Shown in pieces: positions 3 through 42,068 of a stretch of 64,000 bases of DNA. A program made the translations under genes and the position numbers. Position 1 is the stretch's first letter; every line of letters starts with the position of its first letter. This stretch comes from a bacterium (GTDB taxonomy: Bacteria; 4484-113; JAGGVC01): assembly GCA_039961635.1 (NCBI GenBank), contig JABRWB010000005.1, positions 1 to 64,000 on the forward strand. Reading direction: 5' to 3'. Below the pieces are notes generated by a model. That model was given only the letters and a program-made list of their open reading frames with translations. It had not been told where the DNA came from and did no database searches.

Positions 3-977
3 GTGCACTCGGTTCCTTATTACAGGCTGGAGGTCGCGCTGAAGACCGGAGGGCCGGTTTGCGTCAACGGATTCTGGGGCGCGCACCTGCGAAGCGCGCT
101 GGGCGTGGCCTTGAGGGAGTCGTGCTGCCCGTTTCCGGGCGCGCCGTGCGACGGCTGCCTTCTGCGGTTCGACTGCGCGTTTGCGACCGCGTGGCACACG
201 TTCGTGCATCCGGACGACGAGGAGAGCGGGCTGCCGCCGGGGGTCACGACGAACCGCTCGCATCCGTTCATACTCCGGGCGGCAAAGAAAACTCCGGACA
301 AAGTCGCGGCAGGAAGGATTATCAAATTCGGGATGACGATTCTGGGCGAGCACACGTACAAGACCGCGTTCTGGATAGTCGCGCTCAAACGGATGGCGGC
401 AAGAGGGCTCGGCAAGGGGACGGCGCCGCTTGAGCTTGTGCAGGTGAAAAGGCTGCTCGGCAAGCGGTCGCGGATTTTGTACGACAAGTCGAAGCGGGCG
501 GTGGGCAGGCCGGGCGAGCCGGACATGCTTCGGATCGGCGAGCTTCCCGCGCGGGCGGACTCGAACAGGCTGGTCGACCTGAAGCTGAAATTCGTCTCCC
601 CCCTGCGCTTGAGGCGCAAGGACGAAGAGCCCGCCGCGCCCACGCCCAGGCTGATTTGGGAGGCGGCCGTGAGGCGCATCCAGGGAATGGCGTCCGCAAA
701 CGGGGCGCGGCCGCCGGAAGGATGGGGGGGGGAGTATTATTCCGAGGAAGTTTCGGGATGCTGGAGCAGGATAAAACAGGACAGGTGGAGCTCGTCGCAG
801 AAACAGCGCATACCCGCGACTGGATTCGCGGGCGAAATCGAGATTGCGGACGCGCCGCTGGGCCACGTGCCCTGGTGGAACGCGGCGCAGCTTCTTGGAA
901 TCGGCAAGATGGCGGCGTTCGGGCTGGGCGCGTTCGAACTGGAAGTGAAGGGGGGGGAGGATTCGGGCGGGCGATAG
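3..977 (+). CDS. cas6: Cas6-like CRISPR RNA endonuclease (start may lie outside window)
   Basis: The protein fits the Cas6/RAMP family, which cuts CRISPR precursor RNA into guides. The N-terminal half has a cysteine-rich segment (CCPFPGAPCDGCLLRFDCAF, about residues 41-60) that is common in this family. The C-terminus carries the typical glycine-rich end: GFAGEIEI followed by LLGIGKMAAFGLGAFELE. The first usable codon is a GTG two bases from the window edge, so the true start may lie upstream. At 324 residues it is close to normal Cas6 length. No repeats or spacers follow it, so any array must lie to the left. The family call rests on motif recognition; the catalytic residue is not assignable by eye. 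Confidence 0.72.
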   Translation: MHSVPYYRLEVALKTGGPVCVNGFWGAHLRSALGVALRESCCPFPGAPCDGCLLRFDCAFATAWHTFVHPDDEESGLPPGVTTNRSHPFILRAAKKTPDKVAAGRIIKFGMTILGEHTYKTAFWIVALKRMAARGLGKGTAPLELVQVKRLLGKRSRILYDKSKRAVGRPGEPDMLRIGELPARADSNRLVDLKLKFVSPLRLRRKDEEPAAPTPRLIWEAAVRRIQGMASANGARPPEGWGGEYYSEEVSGCWSRIKQDRWSSSQKQRIPATGFAGEIEIADAPLGHVPWWNAAQLLGIGKMAAFGLGAFELEVKGGEDSGGR

Positions 978-36352: not shown

Positions 36353-37117
36353 ATGGATATTTCGTTTCGCGATTCGTTTCTGGCGCGCTGGGAGAAGTAC
36401 TTCCCCGGCGCGGAGCCGCCCGTCGCGTTCTTTTACGCGGAATCGCCGGGCGATGCGGAAGTGCGCAAGCCGCAGACCCAGCACGCGTGCATCATCGGCG
36501 ACCTGGCGCGCGTGCGCGCGGGCCGCGCGATGGCGTTCGACGAGTGCGGCGCGATCTGCGGCGGTGCGAAGCGGTATCTCGGATTCGCGCCGGGGCTGCG
36601 CGAGGGATTCGAATATTTCCTTTCCTACGGAATCCCCGGAAAGATGGATGGCGAGCGCTACAAAAAAACGCCCGAAATCGTCAAAGAACTTCTTGCGAAA
36701 ATGCCGAAATTCGACGCGCCGAAACCGTACATCGTTTTCAAGCGGTTCGACATGCTTGACGCGGCCGACTCGCCCGACGTCGTCATTTTTTTCGCGACGC
36801 CCGACGTGATGTCCGGGCTGTTTACATTATCGGGATTCGACGAGGCGGAGGCCGAAGCGGTAATCGCGCCGTTCGCCGCGGGCTGCGGGAGCATCGTTCA
36901 ATATCCATACCGGGAACTCGCGAACGGGACGATGCGCGGCGTAATCGGGATGTTCGACGTGAGCGCGCGGCCGTGCGTGCCGGCGGACAGGCTCACGTTC
37001 GCCGTGCCGTGGCCCAAGTTCGTGCGGATGGCGGAGAACATGGACGAAAGCTTCCTGATAACGAACTCGTGGAAGCTCGTTCGCAACAGGATGGAAAACG
37101 CTGCGCGGCGGGCGTAG
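36353..37117 (+). CDS. DUF169 family protein
   Basis: A 254-residue protein that fits DUF169 over its full length. It has PPVAFFYAESP, HACIIGDLARVRAGRAMAFD, CGAICGGAKRYLGF, a central VIFFATPDVMSGLFTLSGF block and RGVIGMFDVSARPCVPAD. Cysteines are conserved in the family, whose function is unknown; a metal or heme-like site has been suggested for relatives. A good GGAGGGAGG lies just before the ATG. It appears to be a single gene. Confidence 0.85.
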   Translation: MDISFRDSFLARWEKYFPGAEPPVAFFYAESPGDAEVRKPQTQHACIIGDLARVRAGRAMAFDECGAICGGAKRYLGFAPGLREGFEYFLSYGIPGKMDGERYKKTPEIVKELLAKMPKFDAPKPYIVFKRFDMLDAADSPDVVIFFATPDVMSGLFTLSGFDEAEAEAVIAPFAAGCGSIVQYPYRELANGTMRGVIGMFDVSARPCVPADRLTFAVPWPKFVRMAENMDESFLITNSWKLVRNRMENAARRA

Positions 37118-37136
37118 GGGCGCACTGCGTGCGCCC
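37117..37136. repeat. Short palindromic hairpin after the DUF169 gene
   Basis: GGGCGCAC and GTGCGCCC are perfect inverse copies around a TGC loop. The hairpin overlaps the DUF169 stop region. It has no T-run after it and may be a repeat element rather than a terminator. Confidence 0.5.
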
Positions 37137-39396: not shown

Positions 39397-40647
39397 TCAA
39401 CTTTTGAGTGGCTGTAAATGGATTTGCAACATTCCCGCCCCGTCCCCCGGCTCCGCGACAAACCACGGCATCTTGCGGCCGAACCGCGCCCGGCCCTCGT
39501 CCCAAATTGCCGCGAGAAGCGATTCGCTGCCGCGGATCGCGGCCGCAGAGAGCAGCGCGATCACGCACCCCCCCCACCCCGCGCCGGTCACTCGCGCGCC
39601 CAGGCACCGCCTGTCCTGCGCCAGCCGCTCGACCAGCCAGTCCGTCTCCGGAGTCCCGCATCCAAGCGAGCAAAGCGAACCGTGCGAATCGAACATCAGA
39701 TTCCCCGCCTGCCATGGATTGCGGTGCTCAAGCGCGCTCCTGAACGTTTTCACCCGCTCGTTTTCGAGAAAGAAATGGTCGAGGTAAATCCGGTCGGTTT
39801 CGTCGAGCCGTTCGCGCGCCGCGGGATACGCGTCGAGGCCGAGCACCCGCGGATGCGAAACGCGCTCGTCTAGCTCTTTCAATTTCGCCGCGACGGACTC
39901 CATCCGCGCCCGAAGCGACGCGTACCGCCCGTCGGAAAGATCGCGGCGCACCCCGCTGAATATCACCGCGAATGCATATCCCATCTCCGCGAGAACGCCG
40001 AGCGGGATTTCCTCGAACTCGCGGTGGTAGCAGTCAAGCAAAAGCGCTTGGCCCGCGCGCGCGTGCGCGATCACCGCCGGATCCATCCATCCGCAAGGCG
40101 TCCCGGCGCGGCGCTCGGCAAGGGTAGCGATTTCGATTTTGTCGTCCGCCGAAAGTCCTAGCGAAAACATCGCGTCGAGCGCGCCCAGCGTCCCCATCGC
40201 GAGCGCCGCGGAGCTTGACAGCCCCGCGCCGACGGGCAAGTCGCCGGAGATGTGCAGGCTGCATCCGTTGATTTCGAATCCGCGCTCAGCGAGAATCGCG
40301 AGAACGGCCGCGATAATCGGATAACTTCCGGGCGATTCCGGCGAAACCGGCTCGATTCCGCGATTGGTAAATAACTCCGATGCAACGTTTATTTTTTGGG
40401 AGTGCGGCGGCTTGCCGCCGCCTGTTTTTTCCCCGCCTTGAGCACCGGCGAGCCGGTGCACTCCCATATTTCGGCCCGCGGCGGCGTACAGCGACGGGCC
40501 GATCGCCATCGGCAGGCAGAATCCGCCGAGGTAGTCGGTATGGTCGCCGATGATGTTGACCCGCCCCGGCGCGCGGAAAATCACTTCCGGCGGGGCGGCG
40601 AAAAGCTCCGTGAATCGCGTTCCGGCGGTTGCGGAAAGGTTTTCCAT
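39397..40647 (-). CDS. galK: Galactokinase with in-frame palindromic insertion
   Basis: Galactokinase (GHMP family) phosphorylates galactose. The markers are APGRVNIIGDHTDYLGGF, GDLPVGAGLSSSAALAMGTL (ATP loop), and GARVTGAGWGGCVIALLS. At 416 residues it is about 30 longer than E. coli GalK. The excess is residues ~61-83 (GAQGGEKTGGGKPP), encoded by palindromic copy 40398-40465. The insertion lies between conserved blocks at a likely surface loop. It may keep function; folding has to be tested. Between galK and miaA lies a second copy of the element. Confidence 0.93.
   Translation of the reverse strand: MENLSATAGTRFTELFAAPPEVIFRAPGRVNIIGDHTDYLGGFCLPMAIGPSLYAAAGRNMGVHRLAGAQGGEKTGGGKPPHSQKINVASELFTNRGIEPVSPESPGSYPIIAAVLAILAERGFEINGCSLHISGDLPVGAGLSSSAALAMGTLGALDAMFSLGLSADDKIEIATLAERRAGTPCGWMDPAVIAHARAGQALLLDCYHREFEEIPLGVLAEMGYAFAVIFSGVRRDLSDGRYASLRARMESVAAKLKELDERVSHPRVLGLDAYPAARERLDETDRIYLDHFFLENERVKTFRSALEHRNPWQAGNLMFDSHGSLCSLGCGTPETDWLVERLAQDRRCLGARVTGAGWGGCVIALLSAAAIRGSESLLAAIWDEGRARFGRKMPWFVAEPGDGAGMLQIHLQPLKS
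40398..40465. repeat. Palindromic element copy 1, inside galK
   Basis: 68 bases beginning GGGAGTGCGGCGGCTTGCCG and ending CACCGGCGAGCCGGTGCA then CTCCC. Terminal GGGAGTGC and GCACTCCC are inverted. Two internal hairpins (GGCGGC/GCCGCC and CACCGGC/GCCGGTG) frame a TTTTTT-rich middle. It lies in the galK frame, with no stop. Confidence 0.9.
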
Positions 40648-40669
40648 CGCCGCGAGTTTAGCATCGTAT

Positions 40670-40736
40670 GGGAGTGCGGCGGCTTGCCGCCGCCTGTTTT
40701 TTCCCCGCCTTGAGCACCGGCGAGCCGGTGCACTCC
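40670..40736. repeat. Palindromic element copy 2, galK-miaA intergenic
   Basis: Identical to copy 1 over 67 bases, lying just upstream of the galK start region and next to the miaA end. The two identical copies 272 bases apart show recent duplication or transposition. Confidence 0.9.
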
Positions 40737-40746
40737 AAAATCATTT

Positions 40747-41880
40747 TCAATGCTGCAAAAGCCACTCCCTTATTTGCCCCACCGCTTCCTCCGGCGGGCA
40801 ATCCGGGCCGACGGGGAGGAATGTCACGTCGTTTAATTGATGCCGCAGCCACGTGACCTGGCGCTTCGCGTACTGGCGGGTGATAACCGCGGTGCGCTCG
40901 ATCGCGGCCGCCGCGCTCGTTTTGCCGTCTATCACCGCAATCGCTTCGGGATAGCCATGCCCCAAAAGCGCGCGCGCGTCGCGCGGCACTCCCGCGGCAA
41001 GGAGCGCGCGCACCTCTTCAATGAAACCGGATTCGAACATCTGCTTCGCCCGCGTGTGAATCCGCTCGGCAAGCCATGCCCGGTCGGGAAGCAGCGCGAA
41101 GATTTTGTATTCAATGGTTCCAACCAAACGCGTACCGGGAAGCGCGCCCTTCAGGGCGCGTCCGGAATTCGATTCGTTTTCCGCGCTGCCGTTGTCATCC
41201 GCATTTACGCGGCCTGAAGGCCGCGCTTCCCGGTCAATTGTGTTTGCATATGAATTCCACTCCACGACCTGCCTTTCCGCGGCGGCGGCGACGTCCGGCG
41301 GCGCGATCCCCCCAAGCGGAGATGCGATTTCGCTCCGATGTAAATAACAATACCTTTCAATCGCGCGGGTGATCCGGTGCGGATTGAAAAACGATTCCGG
41401 CTTGATCAGCCCCTCAATCAGTTTGTACACAAGCGGCGCGACCGCGGCGGCCCCCGCGCCCTTCACCCACGCTTCAAGCGGCGGGCGCAACACCGGTGCC
41501 GCGGGCGCGTCGTACTCCATCCCGCCGGCAAGCGACTTGACGCACAGCCCGCTGCCGCCGACGATAATCGGAATTCTTCCTTCCGAAACAACTTCCGCGA
41601 TCGCGCCAAGCGCCATCTCCCGCCAGCCGTGAACCGTCAGGTCGCACTTCGGATCGCACGCGCCGAGCAGCTTGTGAGGCAACACCGAAAGCTCGTCCGC
41701 AGACGGCTGCGCGCTGCCGATCTCCATTCCGCGCATCACCTGGCGCAGGTCGGCGGGGATCGCGGTCAGCGGGAAATCGCGCGCCAGCGCGACCGCCGCG
41801 GCGGTCTTGCCGCTGCCGGTCGGCCCCATGAGAACGGGAATCGGCGCTCCGAATTGGCTGTTTCTTTCGTTCATTCGCAT
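40747..41880 (-). CDS. miaA: tRNA dimethylallyltransferase with in-frame insertion
   Basis: MiaA adds the dimethylallyl group to A37 of tRNAs. Motifs: PVLMGPTGSGKTAAAVALAR (P-loop), ADLRQVMRGMEIGSAQPS, IIVGGSGLCVKSLAGG, NPHRITRAIERYCYL, RALLGHGYPEAIAVIDG and ITRQYAKRQVTWLRHQ. About 377 residues, longer than the usual ~310. The excess includes residues ~216-249 from a palindromic element (41134-41234). ATG at 41880 or 41874. The frame extends upstream without motif support. Confidence 0.93.
   Translation of the reverse strand: MRMNERNSQFGAPIPVLMGPTGSGKTAAAVALARDFPLTAIPADLRQVMRGMEIGSAQPSADELSVLPHKLLGACDPKCDLTVHGWREMALGAIAEVVSEGRIPIIVGGSGLCVKSLAGGMEYDAPAAPVLRPPLEAWVKGAGAAAVAPLVYKLIEGLIKPESFFNPHRITRAIERYCYLHRSEIASPLGGIAPPDVAAAAERQVVEWNSYANTIDREARPSGRVNADDNGSAENESNSGRALKGALPGTRLVGTIEYKIFALLPDRAWLAERIHTRAKQMFESGFIEEVRALLAAGVPRDARALLGHGYPEAIAVIDGKTSAAAAIERTAVITRQYAKRQVTWLRHQLNDVTFLPVGPDCPPEEAVGQIREWLLQH
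41134..41234. repeat. Second palindromic element type, inside miaA
   Basis: About 101 bases with inverted ends ACCGGGAAGCGC and GCGCTTCCCGGT and internal hairpins GCGCCCTTCAGGGCGC and GCGGCCTGAAGGCCGC. The miaA frame reads through it without stop (EARPSGRVNADDN, SNSGRALKGALPG). Only one copy is seen in the window. Confidence 0.8.
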
Positions 41881-41936
41881 TTGCCAAGTGAAAATCATAG
41901 CGCGTGCGCAAAAACTTTCCGGACATACCTGGCGCG

Positions 41937-41964
41937 TTGATTTTCCGAAAGCCGATGTTACAAT
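41937..41964 (+). promoter_or_regulatory. Candidate promoter of the first PKD lipoprotein gene
   Basis: TTGATT (41937-41942) and TACAAT (41959-41964) with a 16-base spacer. The gene starts about 105 bases downstream, after an AGGAGG site. The same region is upstream of miaA in the other direction. Confidence 0.45.
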
Positions 41965-42068
41965 AAATTTGACCGGCCGGTCAGTCAGCATCGGCATCCA
42001 GTGATGTGAGGGAATGCTGACGCCGATTCCACCGGAACCGCAATCGCGGAATCAAGGAGGTTTACAAG

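Follow-up and report, generated by a model that had tools for sequence, protein, structure and literature searches.

A short palindromic element that lies in frame within galK, and again between galK and miaA, is best read as a REPIN for which the RAYT encoded on contig C91 of the same genome is the most likely mobiliser, with the in-frame copies being insertions that survived; we put the probability of this reading at roughly 0.86. The evidence comes from the anatomy of the element, its copies, the covariation of its stems, the pairing of RAYTs with REPs, the in-frame inserts in several genes, and the absence of those inserts from homologues. The stretch of DNA analyzed, here called the window, is 64,000 nucleotides long and carries the following features.

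36353-37117: a DUF169-type ORF, whose stop codon is the TAG of a single family-6 REP
37112..37136, plus strand: that single family-6 REP, GTAGGGGCGCACTGCGTGCGCCC
39397..40647, minus strand: galK (galactokinase), with the insert at residues about 61-84
40398..40465, plus strand: family-1 REPIN copy 1, within galK and in frame, with halves at 40395-40422 (plus) and 40441-40468 (minus)
40670..40737, plus strand: family-1 REPIN copy 2, in the short gap that separates the galK start (40647) from the miaA stop (40747)
40747..41997, minus strand: miaA (tRNA dimethylallyltransferase), with a family-2 REPIN in frame
41134..41234, plus strand: the family-2 REPIN in miaA, 101 nt

An earlier note on this DNA had described a near-perfect element in the galK frame and a second copy between galK and miaA, and the coordinates of both check out. 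The two copies, each 68 nt long, are identical at 67 of 68 positions, the sole mismatch being the last base. They share orientation and spacer, and their starts are 272 apart, with almost no common flanking sequence outside the element. Copy 1 consists of a half GGGAGT+GCGGCGGC-TT-GCCGCCGC, a spacer, and an inverted half GCACCGGC-GA-GCCGGTGC+ACTCCC, the latter reading GGGAGT + GCACCGGC-TC-GCCGGTGC on the opposite strand. In each family-1 REP, the GGGAGT head is unpaired and precedes a stem of 8 bp that is closed by a 2-nt loop. When up to 3 mismatches are allowed, the 24-nt half-site is confined within the window to the two copies, and it appears in 0 of 100 shuffles. A scan of 40200-41400 against Rfam returned nothing significant, just sub-threshold microRNA matches attributable to chance.

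The spacer of both window copies, CTGTTTTTTCCCCGCCTTGA, was found at no other site in a search of the genome, and because both share this unique sequence, one copy probably derived from the other locally. It is possible, if somewhat doubtful, that the second copy is an ordinary local duplication or gene conversion and that only a single mobile insertion took place here. The private spacer, the common orientation and the distance of 272 bp favor such an event, whereas flanks that share almost nothing fit an element whose ends are defined.

Absence of the element from the rest of the genome would, according to the earlier note, have told against its interpretation, and this is not what the search shows. 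The genome, a draft of 2.78 Mb in 100 contigs that is 96% complete, holds 32 clear family-1 REP halves (covariance model, E<1e-3, 2.78-Mb genome), with inverted doublets on contigs C2, C22, C12, C1, C47 and C5. Among 14 distinct genomic copies, the head is nearly constant, 4 of the 8 stem pairs are compensatory, and 99.1% of cells are paired; the covariation score is reached by none of 500 shuffles and stands far above slid controls. The reading frames of family 1 have few stops: 38 of 42 (seven REPINs, six frames) contain no stop, relative to 28.3 in shuffles (maximum 37). Overall, family 1 displays the 20-40 nt hairpin, unpaired 5' head, compensated stem, inverted pairs with variable spacer, and dispersed multiple copies of REPs and REPINs. 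Members of the GTAG superfamily carry GTAG or GTGG at the hairpin foot, as do families 3 and 6 of this genome. Because the family-1 head, GGGAGT, lacks GT[AG]G, we class the family outside that superfamily, as a variant-headed REPIN associated with a RAYT.

Under stricter filters, family 1 had no match in nine genomes of the same class, one of the same family, and 4-9 matches in each of three distant genomes. This distribution is consistent with patchy presence, and since none of the nine same-class genomes gave a family-1 match, comparison with them cannot serve as a check on recent movement. Numerous family-2 REPs are located no more than about 350 bases from a contig end (C6, C24, C38, C41, C44, C47, C62, C67), which suggests that these repeats break the assembly.

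A search of the genome with PF01797 recovered six Y1-type ORFs. An HYH motif is present in the C91 ORF, which scores 92.5 bits against NF047646 (REP-associated tyrosine transposase, NCBIfam; cut-off 80), and is flanked by family-1 REPs in opposite orientations, at C91:72-99 (plus) and 708-735 (minus). The NF047646 cut-off is reached by five ORFs, on C91, C38, C40, C84 and C31, with the C40 ORF at exactly 80.0 bits; all Y1 ORFs are far below the cut-off of the IS200 model NF033573. The hairpins that flank the remaining ORFs belong to other families, as follows.

C38: RAYT flanked by family-2 hairpins (GGGAAG head)
C31, about 2.4-2.9 kb: RAYT flanked by family-3 hairpins (GTAG/GTAC head)
C40: RAYT flanked by hairpins of a GGAGT-headed family
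C84: RAYT flanked by hairpins of a CCGATC family
L316 1539-2096 (G000 C31 about 88 kb): further Y1 ORF between inverted family-6 REPs (GTAGGGGCGCACTGCGTGCGCCC)

The last of these ORFs is above the Pfam cut-off and below the NCBIfam RAYT cut-off. A pairing of the C84 RAYT with a nearby GGAGT hairpin was dropped, as its inverted flanking hairpins are of a different family. The genome has at least five RAYT-REP pairs, and probably six. According to published work, each RAYT is as a rule paired with a single REP family (PMC6006769, PMC2817692).

The galK ORF extends for 416 codons with no stops. Its insert encodes about GVHRLAGAQGGEKTGGGKPPHS, with edges at M61 and Q84, introduces no stop and keeps the frame, and it occupies a site that is a short turn in homologues. 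From P46 to P138, two invariant anchors, the protein measures 93 aa, while homologues have a median of 76 (range 70-81, n=46). The resulting net excess of 12-23 aa (median 17) is slightly under the 22-23 codons that the element encodes, such that the host loop must have been among the shortest in the homologue range if the insertion was a clean one of 23 codons. These lengths could reflect a short host loop or the replacement of some host residues by encoded ones. The figure of about 23 added residues put forward earlier is thus accurate for the encoded segment, and the net gain over homologues is refined to the range given here. The galK of the same-family genome is truncated at the end of a contig and hence provides no DNA-level empty site.

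Invariant residues of the family are kept in galK, including R29, D38, S145-S146, D189 and G355-G360. The top PDB matches of its AlphaFold2 model (mean pLDDT 88.6) are galactokinases. Residues 71-87 score below 50 and are disordered, and the exact local path there means little because the alignment used for modeling is blurred around the insert. The model suggests that the insert adds a disordered surface loop to a galactokinase fold that is otherwise intact, and the enzyme is probably still active. Alternatively, galK could be a decaying pseudogene in which the insert is in frame by chance. The sequence is MAG-derived, similarity to characterized enzymes is low, and NCBIfam galactokinase models match well below their cut-offs; we nevertheless consider decay unlikely in view of the 416-aa stop-free frame, the conserved invariant residues, the complete and confident predicted fold, and the in-frame REPs both in miaA next door and in a dnaE-type gene.

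Beyond galK, at least three other genes contain in-frame REP inserts. One is miaA, which adjoins galK directly upstream. Its family-2 REPIN has the halves ACCGGGAAG+CGCGCCC..GGGCGCG and, inverted, CGCGGCC..GGCCGCG+CTTCCCGGT, and it encodes about REARPSGRVN...GRALKGALPGTR. Relative to a homologue from the same family that has no REPIN (L097, 50% identity), the window miaA is longer by a net 29 aa. The other two genes are located as follows.

L155 718-3027 (G000 C12 66851-69160), minus strand: dnaE-type polymerase gene, the second DnaE homologue (the other is on C13)
L327 762-2009 (G000 C12 about 7.9-9.2 kb): DNA methylase gene, whose catalytic domain contains a family-6 REP

In the dnaE-type gene, a family-1 REPIN sits right after GALD, with a net gain of 18 aa over six same-class homologues, and is followed in the same linker by a family-3 REPIN and a single family-6 REP; this REP-bearing linker comes after the helix-hairpin-helix domain. 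The dnaE insert reads GECTGSPVPWVGASSRTP and the galK insert GVHRLAG..GKPPHS, so that the two are translated in different frames. The extra segment of the DNA methylase, about 66 aa, combines a family-6 REP with other repeat-like sequence. Family 6, a GTAG-type REP, has about 24 copies in the genome.

Two DnaE homologues from relatives of the same class (L294 and L295, from G007 and G008) have long low-complexity inserts (for example STTEAQRTQ and HPSSRIP) at the same linkers, and these are possibly other repeats entering the coding frame. Other long frames across family-1 to family-3 copies have no Pfam match and were not counted; neither was a cinA-like ORF on C47, whose Pfam match lies wholly downstream of the element. 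Most REP copies appear to be intergenic. Gene calls near the other copies combine open frames with Pfam matches, which makes the intragenic count a lower bound.

We infer both mobilization by a RAYT and the direction of copying. A RAYT of the HUH/Y1 type, most likely that of C91, would recognize the folded single-stranded REP, cut beside the hairpin and join copies at other sites. Most intragenic insertions would then be lost, and those that are in frame in tolerant loops would persist. With few stops in any of its six frames, a family-1 REPIN would yield a greater share of survivable insertions, and the GGGAGT head would avoid the in-frame TAG that a GTAG head can bring. A stronger version of this proposal, in which REP insertion serves as an ongoing means of altering proteins and is not tolerated damage, several RAYT-REP systems repeatedly yield loops, and TAG-less heads are selected for read-through in all frames, strikes us as very unlikely.

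Reading the element as a REPIN adds an uncultured bacterial lineage, whose 2.8 Mb hold at least five and probably six RAYT-REP pairs, to those in which REPs are inserted in frame. It also names galK, miaA, the dnaE-type polymerase and the DNA methylase as genes in which loop neutrality can be tested. Finally, RAYT-REP pairs with a head other than GT[AG]G are useful for studying how RAYTs choose their cleavage sites.

In pseudomonads, REP copies number in the hundreds. Relative to REPINs and BIMEs, the repeats of this genome have a low copy number (32 halves for family 1) with some copies within conserved genes, and family 1 has a GGGAGT head rather than the canonical GT[AG]G. In other respects, the REPINs and BIMEs associated with RAYT (TnpA-REP) in Pseudomonas, Stenotrophomonas and E. 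coli are alike: they share the hairpin with an unpaired 5' head, inverted doublets, a variable spacer, compensatory stems, inverted cognate REPs around the RAYT, and one family per RAYT (PMC2817692, PMC6006769, PMC8266576). IS200/IS605 elements likewise share the HUH/Y1 fold and folded single-strand hairpins with a 5' guide, but the ORFs described here are far from NF033573, and five reach the REP_Tyr_transpos model.

The earlier note had likened the insertion in galK to Rickettsia palindromic elements (RPEs). The in-frame palindromic repeat is real, and RPEs are likewise inserted in frame in unrelated protein genes; kinship with them is not supported, and the likeness is one of analogy, the anatomy being that of a REP/REPIN. 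That the element is a member of the Rickettsia group, or a parallel to it that spreads by way of reading frames and has no known transposase, is hardly credible, for although unrelated genes (galK, miaA, dnaE-type, methylase) have in-frame inserts and almost all family-1 frames are open, the majority of copies lie outside recognizable genes, the galK and dnaE copies have no common encoded peptide frame, the genome has a RAYT with these hairpins on either side, and 60% GC does not suggest a Rickettsia host. RPEs are also longer (about 150 bp) and share a peptide in one preferred frame, which sets them further apart from these shorter, RAYT-associated repeats.

Nor is in-frame insertion unusual outside Rickettsia, as had been supposed, since Di Nocera and colleagues (2013) report in-frame REPs and REP dimers in many bacteria (PMC3733652). 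Their GTAG/CGTC REPs and REP dimers add 20-30 residues in frame, for example in Opitutus terrae; they occur in DnaE2, DnaE, UvrA and tRNA-modifying enzymes, replication and repair genes among them; and GTAG REPs supply TAG stop codons (PMC3733652). The present genome has the same in-frame dimers, a dnaE-type target and a REP-supplied TAG stop, and it differs in the genes affected (galK, miaA, dnaE-type, DNA methylase), in the involvement of four REP families from one genome, and in that family 1 has no GTAG tag. REP dimers placed in frame within protein genes, those for DNA polymerases among them, have therefore been in the literature since 2013 (PMC3733652), and the feature that sets the present element apart is its GGGAGT head.
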